57,034 nt of DNA from a virus. Location: the IMG/VR virus record IMGVR_UViG_3300036886_000048, positions 1 to 57,034 of that record, one strand, 5' to 3'. Position numbers and translations under genes: made by a program. Shown one piece after another: positions 7,715-44,315 of the stretch. The notes under the pieces are model-generated. The model saw only the letters and a list, made by a program, of their open reading frames with translations, was not told the DNA's origin and searched no databases. How positions within the stretch are numbered: position 1 is the first letter of the stretch; each line of letters begins with the position of its first letter.

Positions 7715-8170
7715 ATGAGAATATCCAAAGATTCAATAACCCGGATTGCTGCCGACACTACCCAATATTCACTTGGGGATGTTATTACAAATACGGTTGC
7801 CTCAGTATTAAGGTTTGCTACAAACAATAGTTCTGGTTCAATCAATTCTGCAATACTGGTCGATTCGGTAATTGCTGGTGGAACCAAACTTCAAGCTGAT
7901 TTGCTTTTATATTCGGCTGCTCCGACAATCGCAGCAGACAATGCCGCGTTTAGTCCGACTGCCGCACAGGAAACAAACTTGGTTGCAGTAGTTCCGTTTT
8001 TGACAGCAAATTTTGTGGGAGCCGTAACCGCAGGGCATACGGTAAGTGTTCTGACTGCCCCAATTCCATTTGTAGCTCCTGACGGAGTTTTGTACGGAGT
8101 TTTAGTTGCGCGTAGTACGTATACGCCAACTGGAGCAGAGGTAATTACTATCAATTTAGGTATAGTGTGA
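7715..8170 (+). CDS. Probable virion decoration protein
   Basis: A 151-residue Ala/Thr/Val-rich beta protein that starts directly after the previous stop. Composition (few Lys and Cys residues, many small residues) resembles phage head-decoration or fibre domains, and it sits just before the portal. No specific family was recognised. Confidence 0.55.
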   Translation: MRISKDSITRIAADTTQYSLGDVITNTVASVLRFATNNSSGSINSAILVDSVIAGGTKLQADLLLYSAAPTIAADNAAFSPTAAQETNLVAVVPFLTANFVGAVTAGHTVSVLTAPIPFVAPDGVLYGVLVARSTYTPTGAEVITINLGIV

Positions 8171-27961: not shown

Positions 27962-30900
27962 ATGACCACTACTGTAAATCTCCCCGATGGAACCCAACTG
28001 AATTTCCCTGACGGCATGGACAACCAATCCATGCAGTCTGCAATTTACACGTCGTTTCCTCAGTACGCCCCAAAACCAGCTCCATCCTTTTTTGAACGGA
28101 CACAGCAAAAAATTGCTGCGGCGGTTGCGCCTACATCTGATGTTTCGGTTATGGATCAGATCAAGAATATTTCTAGTGGACAGATCAAAAATGCGACTGC
28201 CAAATTCAATGCCCCAGATAGTACGATAGGCTTCGATCAAAATGGAATCAGCGATACCGGAACTCGTTCGTTGACTCAAGCCATTCTAAACCAATCTCCT
28301 GTGCGGAAAGTAGAAACAAATCCTGCAACTCTGGAACCAGATTATGTTGCTCCGGTTCAACAATCGTTGACACCTGTCGAAACCGCTTATACTAACGTCG
28401 GAAAGATTTTGGATAACGCAAAGACAGGCGCAGTAGATTTAGCTGTTCCTCAGAATACCGAACAGGTTCTTGCAAGAGATTCACAAAACATGCATCCGAC
28501 TGAAAAACCTGTGGTTACTGACATTGGAAACGCCATTGCAGAAACTGCTAAAAGTTCAGGTCGTTCTATCGAAGATTTATATGCAAGTCTTGGCGGAGGT
28601 ATGCATATCCTTAACCAAGATTATGCCGCAGGAATTGTTGCAGATAACATGAAAGCTGGAGACAGCAGTTATCGTGCTACAAGGTTTCCCGGCAAAGTAG
28701 TTGAAAACGCATTGCCTTTAGTTCCAGCGGTGGCCTCGTTCTTTATACCCGGAGTTGGAGAGGTTTTAGGTTCGGCAATGTTGGCTGCTCAGTTTGGATG
28801 GGGTTCTGGAAAAGACGCGATAGATCAAGGGAAAAGCGTGGGTAACGCTCAACTAAAAACTGCAGAATATGCAGTACTTGGAACTTCGTTAGGAGGATTG
28901 GTAACAGGTGGAGCTACAAAAGCACTGAGTATAATTCCCGGAATCGGGAAAGCATTTGTTCCGGCAGCAGCAGATACTGTAGGACAGTATGCCTCAAGAA
29001 TGGCGCAAGGTGCTGCTGGAATGGCGGCATTTGTTCCTGTTGGAACAGCGATCAATCAAGGCACAGATGTTCTTACAGGACAGTCTGGCAAACCAGAAGA
29101 TTACCAATATATGCCTACCGTCGATCAACTCATGGCGGGCGCATTACTTCCTGTGCCTCATGCTACACGCGATTTTGTGCAACGCAATACGATGCCCGAA
29201 AAATATATCGGATTGCCCAACGGTGACACAGCAATGTCTCATAGTTACGGAGCACTTTTTTCGTCTGAAGATGCGGCAAATTCTTTCATAGAGTCAAACG
29301 GTTTAACTCGTGGATGGGAACCGCAAGCACTTACCGTTTCAGGCAACAAATTGGGTTTCGTAGTAAAAGCAAAGCCAGCATTGGAAGTGGACTTAACTCC
29401 TAAGCGCACTGCCTCTGATGGTTCAACACCACTTGATTTTTCTCAGCCTGAACCATCAACACAACCACCTATCCCGGAACTAACTGACGCAGTTGGCGGA
29501 ACTCCTGTTGGAAATCAAGAAGTTAATTCTCAGATGGCAAACGCATTCCGTTCTGCAACAGAGGATGCCGCATACAAACAAGTCGAACAGCAGAAACAGG
29601 CTTCAATCGAAAAGGCATATAACTTAAATTTTGCTGAGAACCAATTTCAAAAATATCAAGGAGAACAAAATGTCCCAAGAAACGAGACTGTACATCCCGA
29701 AATACCTACGCAAAGCACTCAAGGAGAAACTGGTGTCACCGGAGGAAGCACTGAAAATGGCATTCTACGATCAGATAATGGCGGGGGCGAGTCAGGGTCT
29801 AATCCAGTACGCCAAGATCAGCAAGGACTTAAAACAGTCCTCGACGCTGTTAAAACAGGAACAGATCAAGTTTCTAATGCGGGGCAACAAACTGAACTGA
29901 CAGGCCGTAGAAATCACATTGAGTCGGTTCCTCCAGAACTGGATCAACGCAGTGGTTTAGATCAACGCCATGACGAAATAATGCGTATGCAAGTTGCTCA
30001 CATGACTCCTGAAGAATTGCGCCATACTATTTTGCACGACGAACTTACCGATTTACCAAATCTTAGAAATTTCAACGAATCCCCTGTACAAGCGATAGTT
30101 GGCTTTGGTGACGTAAACGGATTGAAAGGGTTGAATGATACACATGGACACCCTGCTGGTGATGCATTGATAGCAGCTACTGGACATATTCTTAAAAAAG
30201 TAACCATATCTACAGGAGGTAGAGTAACTTTTTACCGCAGGGGAGGCGATGAATTTCTTGTATACGGCCCGGATGAAAAAGCTGTAAATGCCGCGATTGC
30301 ACTGGCCAGGAGAGAACTTAAAAAGGCATCTTTCGATTTTCAAACTATAGACGGACAAACGGGAACTCAAAAGGGTATCAGTATTGCCTTTGGTATAGGC
30401 AAGGATGTTGCATCAGCCGAAGTTAAAATGAAAGCTGACAAAGCTAGGCAAAAAGCCAACGGTGCAGCAGCAAGGGGAGAATTATCTTCAGGTTTAAGTT
30501 TACACAATCCTGTGCAAGACGCAACCAATAATGCAATTGACGCTTTGGCGCAACAGCACGGAGTTTCTACAACACCAGTTGCACCAATTGACGACCATAG
30601 AACACAGGTTCCAGCCGTAGCGAAGTTAGATAAAACTCTTCGCATCATTCAAAATTTGCCTGAACAACGTGTTAATCAAACAAACACATTACCGGAACCT
30701 GTCGAAATTCCAGCAAAAAACGAACAGGTTATTGAACAAAAACCTTCTACTCAAGTCCAAGGATTAAGGCCGATTATTGAGGACATGATCCGAAACAAAG
30801 TAGTTGCGTCAAGGCCGAACAAAGCAGGACAGAGATTAGACCTTGCTCCAGCTATTCAACGTGCCAAGGAAATCCTGTCAGGAACGCGCACAGCGACTCC

Positions 30901-33900
30901 GGCAGAAGTTTCGTGGTGGACACGTACTGCAAAACGTTTTGAAGGCGTGGATGCTCCTTCCGGGCAGGCAGCGAGGGCAATCATTGATTATCTCAAGTCA
31001 GGAAAAACAGAAATTCAGAAAAGTGTTCATGTTTACCCCGGAGAATCGACACCCGAAATTCTGCATAACCAAGACACCAAAAATGCGATCATCAAACAGG
31101 TACAGTTAGACCATCCTACGTGGGGTGATGCAATTACCAAGTTACTCGAACGTGCCGACAACGGACAACGGGGCGGTTTGGTAATTGGCAGTGAAAAAGA
31201 AAATCTGCAACGTGCCGCCGAAATGTTGGCACAGAAAAATGGCACTACAGTACAACATGAGCTTGACAGATTGAGCAGTGCAACGCAACAAAGTATTACC
31301 GTGATCCGTGCAAAAACCGAAGATGAAGCGCATAAAATTGCTTCCGCAGTCGGTGGTCGTGTTGGTTCTGACTTGCAAGGATGGAAAGTTGAAACAAGTA
31401 CGCCTGTAACTGGGCCGTTGCAATACAGTATTGCCGCTTATGAAGGATTATCACCCGAAGAAATAACAACCAATCCTTCCAGTAGCAAACTTTTAGGATT
31501 GCTCAACCGAGTGGAAAAAGCAAAGCGAACTGCGATTTTGCGCGGTCTTGTAGATGATGCGGGAAATTTGCATGTGTGGGCGGCACACGATGCGATACAC
31601 CCAGAAGGTGCGAAAGCCTCAGGTATACCTTACGACTATACCAAACGAGTGGTAATTACAAAAACCGAAGGACTTCCGTATTTTAGTTTCGTTGACTTAG
31701 GTATAAACAAATCTGACTTAATTAGGCGTTATGGAAATAACGAAGTGTTGTTTGATGTTCCGGGCAAAGGTATTGCAACAGGTGCAGAATATGCGAAACA
31801 GGAAAATATCAAATCCGATAAACTACTGCATGACTTGAGGATTGAACCTCTGCAATATAGCAAAAATCAAATGGGTTTTTATAGCCAATTGAAAAACGCG
31901 ATTGATTCGGCTTCGGATAAAATATTTACAACAGGGCAACAAGTTAAATCGTGGTTGGATGCCAACGCTGGAAAACTCGGAGTCAAGAAAGATGAAATCT
32001 ATTGGTCAGGATTGACAGAATATCTGGAAATGAACCCCGGCAAAATCACCAAGCAAGCCGTTAAGTCGTTCTTGCAGATTTACGGTAATGTCGAAGTCAA
32101 AGAAGTAACTCTTGGAGGTTTTAAAAACGAGTGGGAAATTCTAAGTGAACACACTGGAAAAAGAATCGGCGGAACGTACCCGACTGAACTTGCAGCCAGA
32201 CGTGCCGCTAACGATTCTCCAGTTGGTGACAATCCAATAGTAAATCAGGTACGTGCAGACAACACAGGAGGTGCACCAAAGTATTACGTTTATCAACTTC
32301 CCGGTGGAGAGAATTACAAAGAGCTATTGCTGACGCTTCCAGAAAAAAACGATTCTACAGAAAAACTAAAAGATGCTCTTGATAAAGAATACAGAGTGCA
32401 TGGAAATTCTGAACATTATGACGAGCTTCTGGCGCAGCAAAAAAAGATAAGGGATGAAAATAAAAATTTTACATCGCAGCACTTCAACGAAAAAAACATC
32501 CTTGTTCACATCCGATTTAACGAGCGCACTGATGCAAACGGCAAGAAGGTTTTATTCATTGAAGAAATCCAATCTGACTGGGGACAGAAGGGAAAGAAAG
32601 AAGGATTTGTAACCGATGGTAAATTGCCAACTGACTGGACGGTACACCAGACTGGCCCGGATGGGTCTTGGTATGTACTTGATAAATCCAATACCCAAGT
32701 TGGTATCTACGGACGAACACGCGAGGAAGCCATTGCGACAGCACTTAATCCGAAGGGATATACAGGTGGCGTATCTAATGCCCCATTCGTGACAGATACA
32801 AAATCATGGACGACCCTTGCGTTAAAACGCATGATTATCTACGCTGCAGAAAACGGTTACGATAAAATTGCGTGGACAACAGGAGAACAACAGGTCGATA
32901 GATATAACCTTGCACACCAATTACAAAAGATAACCGCAATAAAACGAGGCGACACGTTTCAGATTCTTGGAATTGGAACTGACGGACAATCTCATAATTT
33001 TGGGGATCATACCGTTGCAGAGTTACCAAATGTCGTAGGAAAAGAACTAGCCGAAAAAATAGCAAATCAAGAAATGCCGAATGAAGTGTACGCAGGAAAT
33101 GATTTGAAGATTGGCGGCGAAGGAATGAAAGGTTATTATGACCAGATCGTTCCGCAGGTTGCAAACGAGATTCTGAAAAAGGTTGGTGGTGGGAAAGTTG
33201 AGCCTGTCGGAATAAATACTAGACATGAAGGTGCGGTATCGGGTGAAATGGTGATGAATCAATGGCATATTCCGATGGACCAACAAGATCGGTATTGGCA
33301 TGACATGACTTTAACGCAACGTTATACTGCAATTCATGCGTTTAGATCGGAAAAAGATGTTCAACCCGGATTTGTTATTACCCCTGAATTACGGACAAAA
33401 ATTCAATCCGAAGGTCTGCCGTTATTCAGCAAACAAAACACACGCACGCCAGGTTTCTATAGTCCTGAACTCGGAACAGCGTTTGTCAATCATGACGAAG
33501 TATCCGTAAAAGATGCGAGTGCAATTATCCTCCACGAAATGACTCACTCCGCCGACACTAAGACGCATCCCACGGATACTGACGGAAGAATGACCATCAT
33601 TGGAAAACAAGTTGTAACGCGCATGAACACGCCCGGAGTAATGGGATTACCTGTTTACGCTCGTGTGTGGGACAGACTGGTAAACGCGGGAGAAACAAAC
33701 AATCCACGCGAAGCTTTGAATTATCTTGTGGAAGAAACTTTGAACGATGCCAAACGATTCGGTTATTCTCGACTGGACAAAGGATTCATGGGATGGCTTC
33801 AACGTCAAGGATTTGCTGTATCCAAACCTGTAAAGGAATGGGTTGCGAATATCCGGGCAGCAATGTACGAACACGGAATTTCTGTGAAGGTTGAAGATTT

Positions 33901-36900
33901 AACAGTGGACGACATGATTGCTGCTGCTACTCGCGGAATGAAACGTGTTGCAGAAGGAAAACAAGAAGTTGCCGGATTAGAAAATAAAGCAATCTTGAAT
34001 GTTGGTTTAGACATTCCCGGTGGAGGAAAACTCAATCCAGAAGATGTACGTTCAAGTGTTGAGAAACTCGGAGTAAAGGTTCTGAGTGAAAATCTTCATC
34101 AATCCGATACAGAAATGACTTCGGTTTTGAGATTGTCTCGCCCATTGACAAAAGACGAAGTGTATCAATTGGCAGTCGAACACAAGCAAGACGCGATTGC
34201 ACAACGACTTCCAAACGGAACAGGTTTCCTCGCTGGCCCCAAGGCCGCAGATTGGGGAGACTATAATCCTGAATATTTCAAAATGCCAAACGGAAAATCT
34301 GCATCCGAATCAAATACTATTCAAGGTTCGGAACGAGGATCAAAACCCGGAGAAATTTCTGTAACCGGAGTTCACTATGGCAAGAAACTTTTCTCAGAAT
34401 TAAGTGGAAAATTTTTCGGTACGGCTGGCGCAGGTGCTGAACGCGACTGGTTGAATAAATTGCCAAAAGACGATCCATTGCAAACTCGGCTTGCGTTTTA
34501 TGTGAACGAAGGAAACGGAACATTCCCTGAATTGCAGAACGGTGTGGGTCATGTTCCGCACGAAGTTCCATTAAACAATCTTTATGACGTTGGATCAAAA
34601 CTTATAAAGACTCCTGTGGGAGATTACGCCGCCTTTGAACATGAAGTTTTGAAACAAGGTTACAGCGGCTACTACATCAAGAATGCTCAAGGTGTTGGCA
34701 AACGCCAGCAAGGTGTTGCGGTTCTTCTTGGCGATGCTGCAAAATCGCTAACGGTTCCTTCGCAAATTCAATTTTCTAAAAAAGAAACATTTGAAAATCT
34801 TAAAACAACGGTTGATGATTTAGCTGACCGAGTTAAATCAAACAAATCTATGTCAACCGTTTCAAGCGGAATATCTGGCGCGTGGGACGGAATTCAACGA
34901 GCCTTCGCTCCGCAATATCGTTCGCCGGAAGCAAGAGAGGTTTCCAGAATTTTGATTGAAGGACTTGGCACAAAAGAAATGGAAGGAATCCGTTTCCGTG
35001 CCAAACTGAACAACGCGAGTAAAGTCAACAATGAAGAACTGACGCTTTCTCAAAAAGCCAGAGACATTGTTGAAAAAGGTTTAACGGTTGCCGCAGATAA
35101 AGTCTTTCTAAGAAACAGCAAGGAAGAAAACTACGCATTTATGCAGGCAATGGACACCGGAGATTCTGCTTATTTTTCTACACGTCCCGAACTAAAAAGT
35201 ATGGCATACGTGATGGGCAAAATGTTCTACGACAAAGCGCGAGAAGTTCAATCTCTTGGTACAGGCGCACTCGAAACTATCCGTGAAAATTATTTTCCCC
35301 ATATCTGGAACCGCGAACCTTCTGGTGATACACAACGTCAAATTATGACCGCACTTTCAAAACGTCCATTTGAAGGACAAAAAGATTTTGTCAAGGCGCG
35401 TATTTTTGATGATTTCAATGCCGGAATTAAAGCTGGACTCGAACCTGTTTCTGATAACCCTCTCGATTTAGTTCTACTCAAGATGGAGGAAATGGACAAA
35501 TATATTCTGGCGCATAAAACTCTTCGGACGATTGCAGAAAATTCAGACGCAGTTACATTGATTGGTGCTGGAGATAAAAAACCTGCCGGGTACGAGGATG
35601 TAAACGGACGATTCGGATTCATCACAATCGGAAATGAGAAACTCAGATACGTTGCGCGTGACGACGTAGCTCAGGTCATTAACAATTATCTTTCTCCAAA
35701 TCTGTATCACAATAAGTATGTCGGTAAATTATATACTGGCGGAATGTCAGCCGCAAACACTTTGAACCAGTTTCAACTTGGGGTTTTCTCAGCATTTCAC
35801 GCCGGGTTTACTTCGTTTGAAGCCGTTATTTCTCACGCCGCAGTAGGTATTAAGGCACTTTCTGGTGGAGATTTCAAAGCCGCTGCACATTATATTGGAA
35901 CTGCTCCGGCAGCATGGATCAATAATCCAAAGATGGGTGACAGAATTATAAAGGAAATGCTGACTAAAGGTTCACACCCCGAAATGGCTCAGATCATCGA
36001 AGGGCTTCAACTCGCCGGATTTAAGTGGCAAATGGATACTCGGTTAAGAACCGATTCCACAAAGAGAATGATTCAGGCTTGGGGCGAAGGGAGACAAATA
36101 GTTGCCGCCGCGCATTCGCTCAACGCAGTAGTCGAACAATCGGCTCGTCCGATTCTTGAGTGGCTTGTGCCTCGTCAAAAGTTCGGTGTATTCGGTGAAA
36201 TGTATAACAAATGGATTCAAGATAACCCGAATGCGTCACATGAAGAATTGAGGAATTCCGCCCAACAAATTTGGAACAGAGTTGATTCACGTCTAGGCCA
36301 AGTGGTATATACACGACTGTTCATGCACAACGTCACAAAGAATTTTGGACAACTTCTGCTTCGTGCGCCGGGATGGACAGGCGGAACGATTCTCGAAGTG
36401 GGTGGCGGCATGAAAGACCTTGCGCTTTACGCAAAGGATGTGGCAACAGGAAAAAATCCCGGAGAAATTAGTGACCGGGCAGCGTACACGTTGTCGATGT
36501 TGTTGGTAACTTCAATTTCAAACGCACTTCTGACAACGTTATTTACTGGTAGTGCGCCGAAAGATTGGAAAGACCTTGTTGCATTCCGCACAGGTAACGT
36601 AGACGAACACGGCAGACCAGAACGATTTATGCTACCCACATATATGAAAGACGTGTATGCGTATGCTCACGACCCCGTCAAAACATTGTTGCACAAAACT
36701 CACCCGTTGCTATCGGTAGTCTCTGACATTGCCCGAAACAGAGACTATTATGGAACCGAGATTCGTAGCGAGGACGACGGACTTTTAAGGCAGCTAGGAG
36801 AGGCAGCAGGGTACGTTGCTGGCTCGTTCGTTCCGTTCTGGATGAAAGGTGTTCAAAAAGAACACGCGAGGGGAGGTAGCCTTATGACTGAGGCTTTGCC

Positions 36901-37306
36901 TTTAGTTGGGGTTATGCCAGCACCATCGGACATAAATAAGTCGAGAGCCGAAATTCTAATGAGCGAATACAGTGCCGACAGATTGCCTCAAGGAACCAGA
37001 ACTCGCGCACAGGCAGAAAAGGCAGCAGCTTCGTCAGAAATTTATTCCGCTATCAGGAAGAACGACATTGCAAAAGCACAGAAACTATTTGCGGAAGATC
37101 AGGCAAAAGGAATCTTGACTGCTCAAGACTATCGAAAAATTGCCATGTCGTCTGGAAACAATTATTTCGTGAACACATTTAAGAAGTTGACTTACGAACA
37201 GGCAGTTCGAGTTATGGCAGTAGCAACTCCAACAGAACAAAAAGAACTTGCTTTTGTATTTGCCCGGAAAAGGGCAACCTTTATTCAGAAAGGCGGCAGG
37301 CCATGA
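27962..37306 (+). CDS. Giant polyvalent protein with GGDEF and zincin domains
   Basis: 3114 codons. The order seen is as follows. A short N-terminal domain (1-40) and hydrophobic glycine-rich helices (260-350) come first, then a disordered linker (about 555-660). A GGDEF domain (690-850) contains D-E-L-T-D-L-P-N at 693, the metal Asp717, N-D-T-H-G-H-P-A-G-D and an intact G-G-D-E-F at 761-765; no inhibitory RxxD precedes it. Polyvalent-type domains follow (F-I-E-E-I-Q-S-D-W-G-Q-K-G near 1535). A zinc peptidase motif H-E-M-T-H is at 1858-1862. A domain shared with the protein at 2605 lies at about 2030-2110. A possible ADP-ribosyltransferase-like region spans 2131-2264, and a long helical C-terminus has membrane-like segments. 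Known polyvalent proteins of this kind are thought to enter the host with the DNA. It directly follows the ejection genes, which fits. Domain borders are approximate. Confidence 0.85.
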   Translation: MTTTVNLPDGTQLNFPDGMDNQSMQSAIYTSFPQYAPKPAPSFFERTQQKIAAAVAPTSDVSVMDQIKNISSGQIKNATAKFNAPDSTIGFDQNGISDTGTRSLTQAILNQSPVRKVETNPATLEPDYVAPVQQSLTPVETAYTNVGKILDNAKTGAVDLAVPQNTEQVLARDSQNMHPTEKPVVTDIGNAIAETAKSSGRSIEDLYASLGGGMHILNQDYAAGIVADNMKAGDSSYRATRFPGKVVENALPLVPAVASFFIPGVGEVLGSAMLAAQFGWGSGKDAIDQGKSVGNAQLKTAEYAVLGTSLGGLVTGGATKALSIIPGIGKAFVPAAADTVGQYASRMAQGAAGMAAFVPVGTAINQGTDVLTGQSGKPEDYQYMPTVDQLMAGALLPVPHATRDFVQRNTMPEKYIGLPNGDTAMSHSYGALFSSEDAANSFIESNGLTRGWEPQALTVSGNKLGFVVKAKPALEVDLTPKRTASDGSTPLDFSQPEPSTQPPIPELTDAVGGTPVGNQEVNSQMANAFRSATEDAAYKQVEQQKQASIEKAYNLNFAENQFQKYQGEQNVPRNETVHPEIPTQSTQGETGVTGGSTENGILRSDNGGGESGSNPVRQDQQGLKTVLDAVKTGTDQVSNAGQQTELTGRRNHIESVPPELDQRSGLDQRHDEIMRMQVAHMTPEELRHTILHDELTDLPNLRNFNESPVQAIVGFGDVNGLKGLNDTHGHPAGDALIAATGHILKKVTISTGGRVTFYRRGGDEFLVYGPDEKAVNAAIALARRELKKASFDFQTIDGQTGTQKGISIAFGIGKDVASAEVKMKADKARQKANGAAARGELSSGLSLHNPVQDATNNAIDALAQQHGVSTTPVAPIDDHRTQVPAVAKLDKTLRIIQNLPEQRVNQTNTLPEPVEIPAKNEQVIEQKPSTQVQGLRPIIEDMIRNKVVASRPNKAGQRLDLAPAIQRAKEILSGTRTATPAEVSWWTRTAKRFEGVDAPSGQAARAIIDYLKSGKTEIQKSVHVYPGESTPEILHNQDTKNAIIKQVQLDHPTWGDAITKLLERADNGQRGGLVIGSEKENLQRAAEMLAQKNGTTVQHELDRLSSATQQSITVIRAKTEDEAHKIASAVGGRVGSDLQGWKVETSTPVTGPLQYSIAAYEGLSPEEITTNPSSSKLLGLLNRVEKAKRTAILRGLVDDAGNLHVWAAHDAIHPEGAKASGIPYDYTKRVVITKTEGLPYFSFVDLGINKSDLIRRYGNNEVLFDVPGKGIATGAEYAKQENIKSDKLLHDLRIEPLQYSKNQMGFYSQLKNAIDSASDKIFTTGQQVKSWLDANAGKLGVKKDEIYWSGLTEYLEMNPGKITKQAVKSFLQIYGNVEVKEVTLGGFKNEWEILSEHTGKRIGGTYPTELAARRAANDSPVGDNPIVNQVRADNTGGAPKYYVYQLPGGENYKELLLTLPEKNDSTEKLKDALDKEYRVHGNSEHYDELLAQQKKIRDENKNFTSQHFNEKNILVHIRFNERTDANGKKVLFIEEIQSDWGQKGKKEGFVTDGKLPTDWTVHQTGPDGSWYVLDKSNTQVGIYGRTREEAIATALNPKGYTGGVSNAPFVTDTKSWTTLALKRMIIYAAENGYDKIAWTTGEQQVDRYNLAHQLQKITAIKRGDTFQILGIGTDGQSHNFGDHTVAELPNVVGKELAEKIANQEMPNEVYAGNDLKIGGEGMKGYYDQIVPQVANEILKKVGGGKVEPVGINTRHEGAVSGEMVMNQWHIPMDQQDRYWHDMTLTQRYTAIHAFRSEKDVQPGFVITPELRTKIQSEGLPLFSKQNTRTPGFYSPELGTAFVNHDEVSVKDASAIILHEMTHSADTKTHPTDTDGRMTIIGKQVVTRMNTPGVMGLPVYARVWDRLVNAGETNNPREALNYLVEETLNDAKRFGYSRLDKGFMGWLQRQGFAVSKPVKEWVANIRAAMYEHGISVKVEDLTVDDMIAAATRGMKRVAEGKQEVAGLENKAILNVGLDIPGGGKLNPEDVRSSVEKLGVKVLSENLHQSDTEMTSVLRLSRPLTKDEVYQLAVEHKQDAIAQRLPNGTGFLAGPKAADWGDYNPEYFKMPNGKSASESNTIQGSERGSKPGEISVTGVHYGKKLFSELSGKFFGTAGAGAERDWLNKLPKDDPLQTRLAFYVNEGNGTFPELQNGVGHVPHEVPLNNLYDVGSKLIKTPVGDYAAFEHEVLKQGYSGYYIKNAQGVGKRQQGVAVLLGDAAKSLTVPSQIQFSKKETFENLKTTVDDLADRVKSNKSMSTVSSGISGAWDGIQRAFAPQYRSPEAREVSRILIEGLGTKEMEGIRFRAKLNNASKVNNEELTLSQKARDIVEKGLTVAADKVFLRNSKEENYAFMQAMDTGDSAYFSTRPELKSMAYVMGKMFYDKAREVQSLGTGALETIRENYFPHIWNREPSGDTQRQIMTALSKRPFEGQKDFVKARIFDDFNAGIKAGLEPVSDNPLDLVLLKMEEMDKYILAHKTLRTIAENSDAVTLIGAGDKKPAGYEDVNGRFGFITIGNEKLRYVARDDVAQVINNYLSPNLYHNKYVGKLYTGGMSAANTLNQFQLGVFSAFHAGFTSFEAVISHAAVGIKALSGGDFKAAAHYIGTAPAAWINNPKMGDRIIKEMLTKGSHPEMAQIIEGLQLAGFKWQMDTRLRTDSTKRMIQAWGEGRQIVAAAHSLNAVVEQSARPILEWLVPRQKFGVFGEMYNKWIQDNPNASHEELRNSAQQIWNRVDSRLGQVVYTRLFMHNVTKNFGQLLLRAPGWTGGTILEVGGGMKDLALYAKDVATGKNPGEISDRAAYTLSMLLVTSISNALLTTLFTGSAPKDWKDLVAFRTGNVDEHGRPERFMLPTYMKDVYAYAHDPVKTLLHKTHPLLSVVSDIARNRDYYGTEIRSEDDGLLRQLGEAAGYVAGSFVPFWMKGVQKEHARGGSLMTEALPLVGVMPAPSDINKSRAEILMSEYSADRLPQGTRTRAQAEKAAASSEIYSAIRKNDIAKAQKLFAEDQAKGILTAQDYRKIAMSSGNNYFVNTFKKLTYEQAVRVMAVATPTEQKELAFVFARKRATFIQKGGRP
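29670..29900 (+). CDS. Overlapping gene inside the polyvalent linker
   Basis: 76 codons in the +1 frame relative to the polyvalent gene. The ATG at 29670 has a perfect AAGGAG at 29658-29663 with a six-base gap. The product is a well-formed helical, basic protein (M-S-Q-E-T-R-L-Y-I-P-K-Y-L-R-K-A-L, then S-P-E-E-A-L-K-M-A-F-Y-D-Q-I-M). Over the same bases the polyvalent frame reads only a low-complexity Gly/Ser/Gln/Thr linker. The balance of evidence suggests that the small frame is the one under protein-level selection. No family was recognised. Confidence 0.6.
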   Translation: MSQETRLYIPKYLRKALKEKLVSPEEALKMAFYDQIMAGASQGLIQYAKISKDLKQSSTLLKQEQIKFLMRGNKLN

Positions 37307-41320: not shown

Positions 41321-41964
41321 TTTTTGCCTTTCAGCGTAGTCTTGATTGCCACAAACTCTGCCTTGGTCATTTCTTTGTAGTCCTCACCAAGCAGTCGATC
41401 AATCCCTGCCTCAGTCAAAATATCCGAAACGCTAGTTTCTTTAAGGGCCTTGAATTTTGCTTTGATGAACGCAATTTCGCCTACTTCGGCGGGAGGGCTG
41501 TCTGTGGCGGAAACTGTCGGTTCAGGCTGAGTTTTAGGTGAAGCCTTAGGTTTTGTTTTTCCGTTTGGTGTCTGTTGAACACCGTCTGTATCGCCTGTCA
41601 TTTGATCTAGGGCGTCGTGTTCGACAATCTCAAGCGCAGTTGTCCAAAGATACCTACGCAAATACGATTCCACCGCACCCAAATTTTGAACAGGGTGGCA
41701 ACCTTTTAAAGCCGCTTCGGACATGGGCGAAGTAACTATCACTTCGCTATTATCGTCGGTATCCGTGATCGTAAGTGTGGCTAATTCGCCAGTATAACGA
41801 ACTAATCCACAAAGTCCGAGTTTATGAAAAATTAGTTGTATTGCCGGAAGAAAATCTTCAAGTTCGAAGTAACTATTGCCGGAATACTCGTTTTTTCCGG
41901 TCTTTTTAAGCGAAGTTGCTTGAAGGTCTACTCTGGCCTGCATCAGTTTTTTAAGTACGCTCAT
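41317..41964 (-). CDS. ERF-type single-strand annealing protein
   Basis: A 215-residue protein from the ATG at 41964, which has GGAG upstream; the longer frame to 42096 would cross the promoter and is rejected. The pattern G-N-S-Y-F-E-L-E-D-F-L-P-A-I, a Y-T-G-E-L-A-T-L-T-I-T core and G-A-V-E-S-Y-L-R-R-Y is that of the ERF superfamily. After about residue 125 the linker is disordered, ending in a small helical domain. It works with the adjacent exonuclease. Confidence 0.8.
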   Translation of the reverse strand: MSVLKKLMQARVDLQATSLKKTGKNEYSGNSYFELEDFLPAIQLIFHKLGLCGLVRYTGELATLTITDTDDNSEVIVTSPMSEAALKGCHPVQNLGAVESYLRRYLWTTALEIVEHDALDQMTGDTDGVQQTPNGKTKPKASPKTQPEPTVSATDSPPAEVGEIAFIKAKFKALKETSVSDILTEAGIDRLLGEDYKEMTKAEFVAIKTTLKGKK

Positions 41965-42096: not shown

Positions 42097-42130
42097 GCGA
42101 TTTAACTTGGCGAGGGCGGTTAATAAACCT

Positions 42131-42159
42131 TGACTTTTAACCGAAGTTATGGTAAGATG
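42131..42159 (+). promoter_or_regulatory. Rightward promoter of the long RNA
   Basis: TTGACT (42131-42136), a 17-bp spacer and TAAGAT (42154-42159) with TG upstream. It is back to back with the leftward promoter and no protein gene follows before the terminator at 42596. Confidence 0.75.
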
Positions 42160-42349
42160 TATGCAAGGTTGTGAAATTGATTAAATGTTGCCCGACAAAA
42201 CTTAATTGGTATTCGGAACAACAATTTTGCAACCGTTGCCGCATGATCCCATGAGTCGATAGTAGGTGAATGGGAATGGTTCGTTACCGATAAAAGTAAT
42301 CCTCCGAATAACGTGAACGGAGGCGTCTATCGACAAAGCGGCAAGATTT

Positions 42350-42423
42350 CGAGGGGTAGCTCAGTCTGGTAGAGCTGGAGCCTCATAAGCTCAATGTCGC
42401 AAGTTCGAATCTTGCCCCCGCAA
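42350..42423 (+). tRNA. tRNA-Met(CAT), initiator-like, degenerate
   Basis: A cloverleaf can be drawn: acceptor C1-G7/C66-A72, D-stem GCTC/GAGC, anticodon loop CTCATAA, T-arm GCAAG-TTCGAAT-CTTGC, discriminator A73 followed by CC but no encoded CCA. C1 opposite A72 is unpaired, the hallmark of bacterial initiator tRNA. However, the three G-C pairs at the anticodon stem typical of initiators are replaced, and A3-G70 and G27-A43 are mismatched. It is embedded in the long RNA rather than in a tRNA cluster. Confidence 0.7.
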
Positions 42424-42543
42424 CCGAACTTAGACGTTACCGAAAACCGTAGATTACCGGGCAAGCCGCATTGCTACGTCAGTAGGGTAAATCGAAGTTG
42501 ACTTACGCCGGATGGAAAGAATCTGGCACGAATTGCAACAGAG

Positions 42544-42556
42544 AAGGAGGTGATCC
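42544..42556 (+). promoter_or_regulatory. 13-nt complement of the 16S rRNA 3' end
   Basis: AAGGAGGTGATCC pairs without mismatch with the universal 16S tail GGAUCACCUCCUU. No start codon follows at a usable distance, since the GTG within it leads to a stop after four codons. It is therefore not a normal ribosome binding site. Confidence 0.7.
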
Positions 42557-42595
42557 TAGTCTGAACAGACCCGAAGAGAGTCGATTGCAGTTTTA

Positions 42596-42631
42596 GACCA
42601 ACATAATTCCGGTTAGTTGGTCTTTTTTTTT
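42596..42631 (+). terminator. Rho-independent terminator
   Basis: GACCAAC (42596-42602) pairs with GTTGGTC (42616-42622), followed by nine T residues. It ends the long RNA and isolates the helicase promoter. Confidence 0.9.
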
Positions 42632-42649
42632 GCTCAAAAATATTTATGT

Positions 42650-42860: not shown

Positions 42861-44315
42861 ATGGAACTTCGAACTTATCAATCAACCTGTATCGAAAATT
42901 GCCGAAAAGCACTCGCTGAGGCATTTTCTGTAATCTTGTTGTATTCACCCACTGGTTCTGGAAAAACGGTGGTTGCATCGAACATCATGGAACGAGCCGC
43001 GACCAAAGGAAAACGGGTTATTTTTGTGGTGAATAGGGTTCACTTGGTCAAGCAGGCCAGCAAACATTTAAAAAACATCGGACTCACTCACGGTATTGTT
43101 CAATCCGACAACACATGGGGAACTGACAGAAACGTTTTGGTGTGTTCTGTACAAACACTTACCCGTCGCGGTTATCCTGACGCAGACTTGGTGATAATCG
43201 ACGAGGCTCACGGCATAACTTCGGACACATACCAGCGACTGATCGAGTATTATCGTTCAAATAACGTTCCGATCATTGGTCTGACAGCCACACCTTTCAC
43301 CAAAGGGTTAGGAAAAACCTTCCAGAAACTAGTTGTGGCAGCGACGATTCCAGAATTGATTAAATTGGGGCATCTGGTAGACTGTGAAATTTATGCACCA
43401 CCGGGGCCGGATTTGACGAACGTGCCGATAGTGAACGGTGATTACGAAGAACAATCCCTTGGAAAAGCGGTAGACCAGCACGACCTGATTGCAGACATTG
43501 TTGATACGTGGCTCGAACACAGTGGAGGACTTTCGACAATTCTGTTTGCCACAAACATTTTGCATAGCAAACACTGTTGCGACGAATTCAATTCTCGCGG
43601 TATTCCGGCAGAGCATGTGGATTGTTACACTTCTGACGACGAACGGGAAGCAGTCCAGCAACGCTTCGATACAGGTGTCACACTCGTTTTATGCAATGTG
43701 GATGTGTACTCTGAAGGTTGGGACTGTCCGAGGGCCACAGTGATGATTCTAGCACGTCCTACGCGCAAATTAACTAGATACATCCAACGTGCAGGACGGA
43801 TTTTAAGACCGTTTCCGGGAAAAACTATTGGATTGATTTTAGATCATTCAAAAACGTCATGGGAGTTTGGTTATCCTACTGACGAACTGCCTTTGGAACT
43901 CAATACTAAAACGCCTGCGAAGAAAAGCGAACCTTCCGACAAAAAGGAAAAAATCGCAAAACCTTGTCCCAAGTGTCACTTCCTGATTCCCCCCGGAGTA
44001 TACCCGTGTCCGAAATGCGGATTCGCAATGCAGGCGCAAAACGAAATCGAAGTAGGGGAAGGAAAACTAACAAAACTCCAGCGTAAATACCTGTTTACAC
44101 CGGATCAATTGCAGGAATTCTGGGGCGGTTGTTTGTTCTTGGCTGAGAAGCGTGGAAAACCCCGGACATGGGCGGCAAGGCTCTACAGCGACATTACTCA
44201 CAAATGGCCTAAAGGTTTGAACGAAATATCTTGCAATCCCAATCAGACTGTGTTAAACTTCGACGTACACGCTAGGATTAAGGCGAGTTTTTACAACAAA
44301 AGGAAATCGTCATGA
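42861..44315 (+). CDS. Superfamily 2 DEAH-box helicase
   Basis: A 484-residue helicase from ATG 42861. Motif I is S-P-T-G-S-G-K-T (29-36), motif II D-E-A-H (114-117), motif III G-L-T-A-T-P (140-145), with later Y-S-E-G-W-D-C-P and motif VI Q-R-A-G-R-I-L-R-P. A zinc-ribbon-like C-P-K-C ... C-P-K-C-G lies near 371-388, followed by a C-terminal domain. The layout resembles the SSL2/UvsW-like phage helicases that act on forks and recombination intermediates. No strong ribosome binding site is visible. Confidence 0.85.
   Translation: MELRTYQSTCIENCRKALAEAFSVILLYSPTGSGKTVVASNIMERAATKGKRVIFVVNRVHLVKQASKHLKNIGLTHGIVQSDNTWGTDRNVLVCSVQTLTRRGYPDADLVIIDEAHGITSDTYQRLIEYYRSNNVPIIGLTATPFTKGLGKTFQKLVVAATIPELIKLGHLVDCEIYAPPGPDLTNVPIVNGDYEEQSLGKAVDQHDLIADIVDTWLEHSGGLSTILFATNILHSKHCCDEFNSRGIPAEHVDCYTSDDEREAVQQRFDTGVTLVLCNVDVYSEGWDCPRATVMILARPTRKLTRYIQRAGRILRPFPGKTIGLILDHSKTSWEFGYPTDELPLELNTKTPAKKSEPSDKKEKIAKPCPKCHFLIPPGVYPCPKCGFAMQAQNEIEVGEGKLTKLQRKYLFTPDQLQEFWGGCLFLAEKRGKPRTWAARLYSDITHKWPKGLNEISCNPNQTVLNFDVHARIKASFYNKRKSS

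Follow-up and report, generated by a model that had tools for sequence, protein, structure and literature searches.

A candidate orphan Shine-Dalgarno sequence downstream of the tRNA in a predicted noncoding phage transcript

Genomic setting of the element

The window, by which we mean the whole 57,034-nucleotide (nt) stretch of DNA analyzed, is an IMG/VR virus contig whose polymerase and terminase have relatives of no more than 49% identity, with 59% for the capsid of L098. Two divergent operons are separated in this contig by a noncoding gap of about 900 bases, which is flanked by the gene for an Erf-like annealing protein on the minus strand (start near position 41964) and by that for a DEAD-box helicase on the plus strand (start at 42861). 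Elsewhere in the window, positions 27962 to 37306 form a single open reading frame (ORF) of 3,114 residues, a giant polyvalent-type phage protein.

The features of the gap lie on the plus strand and follow one another closely. A predicted sigma-70 promoter (42130 to 42158; TTGACT-17-TAAGAT, with a TG before the −10 element), recognized by consensus match only, places the expected transcription start near 42165. Downstream are a structured, noncoding 5′ leader (42165 to 42349), a tRNA gene with anticodon CAT (42350 to 42425; 55.6 bits), and a 3′ trailer (42426 to 42632) that contains the 13-mer AAGGAGGTGATCC at 42544 to 42556. The trailer ends in an intrinsic terminator (42594 to 42631; −11.7 kcal/mol) of the form AGACCAAC(A)UAAU-UCCG-GUUAGUUGGUCU followed by T9, whose bulged stem was missed by the terminator pattern of the promoter scan. 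The 13-mer begins 118 nt after the 3′ end of the tRNA and lies 66 nt before the T run of the terminator, and a further promoter-like sequence, which would serve the helicase, is situated at 42649. With promoter and terminator both predicted, the simplest reading of this arrangement is one short noncoding transcript with the tRNA midway, and the fold of the whole predicted transcript has a z score of −2.5. The leader also offers a possible H-type pseudoknot (42248 to 42334), read from the sequence, in which CCCAT (42248 to 42252) pairs with ATGGG (42270 to 42274) and crosses the pairing of GTCGATAG (42255 to 42262) with CTATCGAC (42327 to 42334).

The tRNA has several unusual features, including C1·A72 and A3·G70 mismatches and an encoded end of CCG instead of CCA. 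Its C1·A72 pair is initiator-like and its D stem is elongator-like, and it may be of the Ile2 type, since several of its phage matches are annotated as tRNA-Ile. The reading frame that covers it (MSQVRILPPQ...) is simply a translation of the tRNA sequence itself. Just upstream, GGCAAGATT (42340 to 42348) is complementary at all 9 positions to AATCTTGCC (42408 to 42416) in the T arm and acceptor, and the resulting 9-bp helix could compete with folding of the tRNA.

A unique, full-length complement of the 16S rRNA tail

Most bacterial 16S rRNAs end in GGAUCACCUCCUU, which may not be the end in the host of this phage, and AAGGAGGTGATCC is the exact complement of that tail. In a typical host with a CCUCCUU tail, again possibly not the host of this phage, the 13-mer would span the entire single-stranded 3′ tail that follows helix 45. 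A sequence-only reading had reported this 13-nt complement and had put its chance occurrence at about 0.002 per window; both statements were borne out, as the 13-mer is present in a single exact copy in the window and its expectation over both strands is 2 × 57034/4^13, or 0.0017. Even the shorter AAGGAGG has no second copy anywhere in the window, and sites with up to three mismatches to the 13-mer occur at chance frequency (14 found versus 11.1 expected).

When the window was scanned for duplexes with GGAUCACCUCCUUA, the 13-mer ranked first at −25.3 kcal/mol, leading the second-best match in the phage (−18.6 kcal/mol, inside a gene) by 6.7 kcal/mol. None of the 35 gene starts of the phage uses an uninterrupted stretch of the 16S complement longer than 6 bases, and their duplex energies range from −0.9 to −12.5 kcal/mol with a median of −5.6. 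The element is therefore not an extreme case of the phage's own style of ribosome binding site (RBS), which upholds the earlier claim that the match exceeds that of a normal RBS. The site contains no small-subunit rRNA match beyond the tail (RF00177 is absent), and identity as an rRNA gene, an rRNA fragment, or a 16S antisense sequence was rejected on this basis.

A 13-nt match could also have arisen by drift in a noncoding trailer and have no role, being noticed only because the sequence is famous; many other 13-mers would have been equally eye-catching to a reader, but only 0.0017 copies of this one are expected per window.

Absence of a start codon at the proper distance

An ordinary RBS would be followed by a start codon, and no ATG, GTG, or TTG occurs within about 4 to 13 nt after the Shine-Dalgarno (SD) core, which agrees with the sequence-only reading that no start codon is correctly placed. 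The GTG within the motif itself opens a frame that ends after 4 codons. The sole candidate start is a CTG at 42561 to 42563, 10 nt past GGAGG, whose frame spans 11 codons (42561 to 42595, plus strand; stop at 42593 to 42595); no other ORF is conceivable at that spacing. The site might be a decayed or unusual RBS whose small ORF, a leader peptide or its remnant, has been lost or begins at this CTG. We regard this explanation as quite unlikely: the spacing of the CTG is suitable and its frame ends at the base of the terminator, but CTG is seldom used as a start, the RBSs of this phage use no more than 6 nt, and the related elements of T4-like phages described below likewise have no start codon at a consistent spacing.

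Predicted structure around the 13-mer

The 13-mer is predicted to be enclosed in a stem-loop (42530 to 42593, plus strand) made of an outer helix (42530 to 42538 with 42585 to 42593) and an inner helix (42539 to 42542 with 42560 to 42563), within which AGGA (42545 to 42548) pairs with UCCU (42554 to 42557) around a GGUGA loop. Compared with dinucleotide shuffles, the fold of the trailer has a z score of −2.4, and 3 of 200 shuffles folded equally well. When only the flanks were shuffled and the 13-mer was held fixed, the local element had a z score of −2.7 (P = 0.02), with an enclosing pair probability of 1.00. The AGGA-GGUGA-UCCU hairpin follows in part from the 13-mer alone, in which GGA can pair with TCC; it is not independent evidence, and the argument for a chance match can claim the hairpin as partly a product of the 13-mer itself.

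That the 13-mer is partly paired in the predicted fold counts against its docking to the ribosome. The computed cost of opening the structure is +8.0 kcal/mol versus a duplex gain of −25.3 kcal/mol, which leaves a balance of approximately 17 kcal/mol in favor of a duplex with a free 16S tail in this model.

Recurrence of orphan 13-mers before terminators

No homologue of the window RNA was found in phage and plasmid collections. IMG/VR searches by a 17-mer returned only coding or chance matches, and those by the tRNA plus an 11-mer at a fixed distance returned only tRNA-Ala anticodon and variable arms or coding sequence. The latter query against GTDB genomes yielded coding matches or 16S antisense in an archaeon. 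Kin phages were sampled by way of the helicase, DNA polymerase, and terminase, and in a corresponding setting they carry neither the 13-mer nor a tRNA. Conservation among homologues is visible for a T4-like locus only, the window RNA being known from one sequence, and the case for a chance match can cite this lack of homologues. Against chance, a comparable set of phage sequences retrieved through their polymerases or terminases (2.06 Mb in all) contains no match of at least 11 bases to the 13-mer.

When IMG/VR was scanned for the 13-mer with T7 located 45 to 75 nt downstream (13-mer-N45-75-T7), 14 matches at 11 distinct loci were obtained, as opposed to 2 for the reversed 13-mer. This difference is only suggestive of recurrence before T runs, because the spacing was fitted afterwards to the window and a single control was run. 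Both control matches are associated with ORFs, one falling inside a 548-codon frame and the other where a 145-codon frame ends. Among the 11 loci, one is coding (L213), four are ambiguous or touch a gene (L210, L211, L218, and L220), and the remaining six (L209, L212, L214, L215, L216 [four near-identical records], and L219) are noncoding. A possible TTG farther on is present at only two of these six (L212 and L219). No tRNA-like sequence was found beside the L210 site. The orphan 13-mer of L214 comes after a short membrane-protein-like ORF, and a Pistol ribozyme (L214 positions 7786 to 7848; 55.4 bits) lies about 1.6 kb downstream of it.

A conserved locus in T4-like marine phages

Two of the noncoding loci, L215 and L219, represent one locus type of T4-like marine phages, in which a membrane protein gene is followed by the 13-mer, a terminator, and a cytidyltransferase gene. 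The membrane proteins form a family of 40 to 45 residues (F.AG.L.G.PLW...PWNK) in T4-like marine phages (L215, 1574 to 1696; L219, 1536 to 1673; and L243 to L295), and their genes precede those for a gp46-like recombination endonuclease subunit or a cytidyltransferase. The family has no match in the isolate collection, and no isolate phage carrying the T4-like element was found.

A search that used only the membrane protein as query, and so took no account of the motif, recovered 53 loci. Wherever a terminator and a cytidyltransferase gene lie downstream, the orphan element is present (L215, L219, L256, L259, L287, L291, and L293). L215 and L219 had already been picked up by the motif scan; the other five are unselected and amount to four distinct loci, L291 and L293 being nearly identical. 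These five have A/TAGGAGGTGATC at the same place, without a start codon. L294, which has the cytidyltransferase gene but lacks the terminator, also lacks the element, and the other settings of the membrane protein have a plain terminator or none, and no element. The motif takes the form AAGGAGGTGATCC in two loci, and the remaining five have TTAGGAGGTGATC(C/A). Five element-bearing records contain a single copy each of the 11-mer AGGAGGTGATC, which is absent from 22 small-protein records without the element and from five records of the window's kin; the 157-kb L215 record contains a single AAGGAGGTGATC.

The arms of the enclosing stem are unrelated between groups, yet they are paired in each, with probabilities of 0.73 to 1.00. 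Enclosure in a helix and a downstream terminator are common to the window, L215, L256, L259, L287, L291, and L293, and are weaker in L219 and L214. The T4-like lineage retains the orphan site while all of its surroundings change. The resemblance of its elements to that of the window lies in motif and architecture and extends to neither sequence nor neighborhood. In light of the IMG/VR recurrence and the T4-like locus, the window site more likely belongs to a recurring type of orphan SD than is a curiosity. Its position in a noncoding transcript beside a terminator, the same unusual place as in other phages, further weighs against a roleless match by chance, which we consider rather unlikely overall.

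Interpretation and relation to known RNAs

The only Rfam family detected on the window transcript is tRNA (RF00005); covariance models of other families, GOLLD and ROOL included, gave no match to the window RNA at E values up to 10. Identity with a known RNA family was rejected, the related elements likewise having no credible Rfam match. Several known systems nonetheless resemble the window RNA in part. The small stable RNAs C and D of the T4 tRNA cluster are phage noncoding RNAs cotranscribed with tRNA, as the window RNA would be, and no sequence relation to them was found. 3′ETS-leuZ is a small RNA (sRNA) derived from a tRNA 3′ trailer that ends at an intrinsic terminator and pairs with sRNAs; the window trailer would similarly be released from downstream of a tRNA and is predicted to end at an intrinsic terminator, but its proposed partner is the 16S tail rather than sRNAs. 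GOLLD and ROOL are large, ornate RNAs of phages or prophages that have tRNAs close by or within them (PMC12286853), and the window RNA, also a phage noncoding RNA near a tRNA, differs from them in being much smaller and outside their Rfam models.

The literature searched yielded no account of orphan SDs that precede phage terminators, and the nearest precedent is STAB-SD. In the 5′ untranslated region (5′UTR) of cry3A in Bacillus thuringiensis and in similar Gram-positive 5′UTRs, this noninitiating SD binds the 30S subunit by base pairing with the 3′ terminus of 16S rRNA, and from its position near the mRNA 5′ end it blocks RNase J1 and stabilizes the RNA (PMC4113751). Like STAB-SD, the window 13-mer is an SD complementary to the 16S tail that lacks a start codon, and by analogy it would bind 30S subunits. 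Unlike STAB-SD, it lies near a 3′ terminator, 118 nt past a tRNA and within a stem-loop, rather than near a 5′ end. The window element would therefore be STAB-SD-like in its working and not a member by position.

The explanation that we favor, by a judgment only slightly on the positive side of even, is that the 13-mer is an orphan SD in the 3′ trailer of a short noncoding phage transcript and docks the 30S subunit without initiation, as STAB-SD does. Given the predicted promoter, tRNA, and terminator, the transcript would be made and the tRNA excised, after which the trailer would fold with its outer helix around the 13-mer and the GGUGA loop exposed. This loop could nucleate on UCACC of the 16S tail, and strand exchange would then produce a 13-bp duplex at a computed net of about −17 kcal/mol. 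With a start codon out of reach, the 30S subunit would dock without initiating and, most likely acting in cis, would shield or anchor its own RNA in the manner of STAB-SD. The consequence of docking would be protection of the RNA or hindrance of translation. The sequence-only reading had proposed that the site traps or anchors the ribosome, which is partly supported by the orphan 13-mers before terminators and by conservation in the T4-like locus.

The element could instead act in trans, with an accumulating RNA serving as a decoy that captures 30S subunits or blocks SD-dependent initiation on host mRNAs. The full-length tail match, the predicted promoter and terminator of its own, and the single site per genome in related cases would suit a decoy, which would nevertheless need a copy number near that of ribosomes. 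This stoichiometry, amounting to thousands of copies per cell, favors a cis role over a global decoy, and the T4-like element, situated in the 3′UTR of an ordinary gene, fits cis action better; we judge a decoy very unlikely.

More broadly, we tentatively suggest, at somewhat below even confidence, that phages unrelated to one another have in each genome a single orphan anti-anti-SD of full length, contained in a stem-loop just upstream of a terminator, and that these constitute an unrecognized class of RNAs that capture the 16S tail. Strong SD sequences are taken as signs of translation starts. If the suggestion is true, this recurrent phage element is a noninitiating, ribosome-docking RNA outside 5′UTRs, the annotation of orphan SDs changes, and phages may have a means of stabilizing their own RNAs or of engaging host 30S subunits.

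The TTAGGAGGTGATC variant may reflect a different host tail. A match of TTAGGAGGTGATC to cyanobacterial 16S tails was not confirmed, as those tails end in CCUCCUU(U) (PMC6847405). In L287, L291, and L293, an internal mimic of the 16S tail, AATCACATACCT, lies opposite the orphan SD (positions ~1650 to 1720) and could cover it, suggesting a switch.
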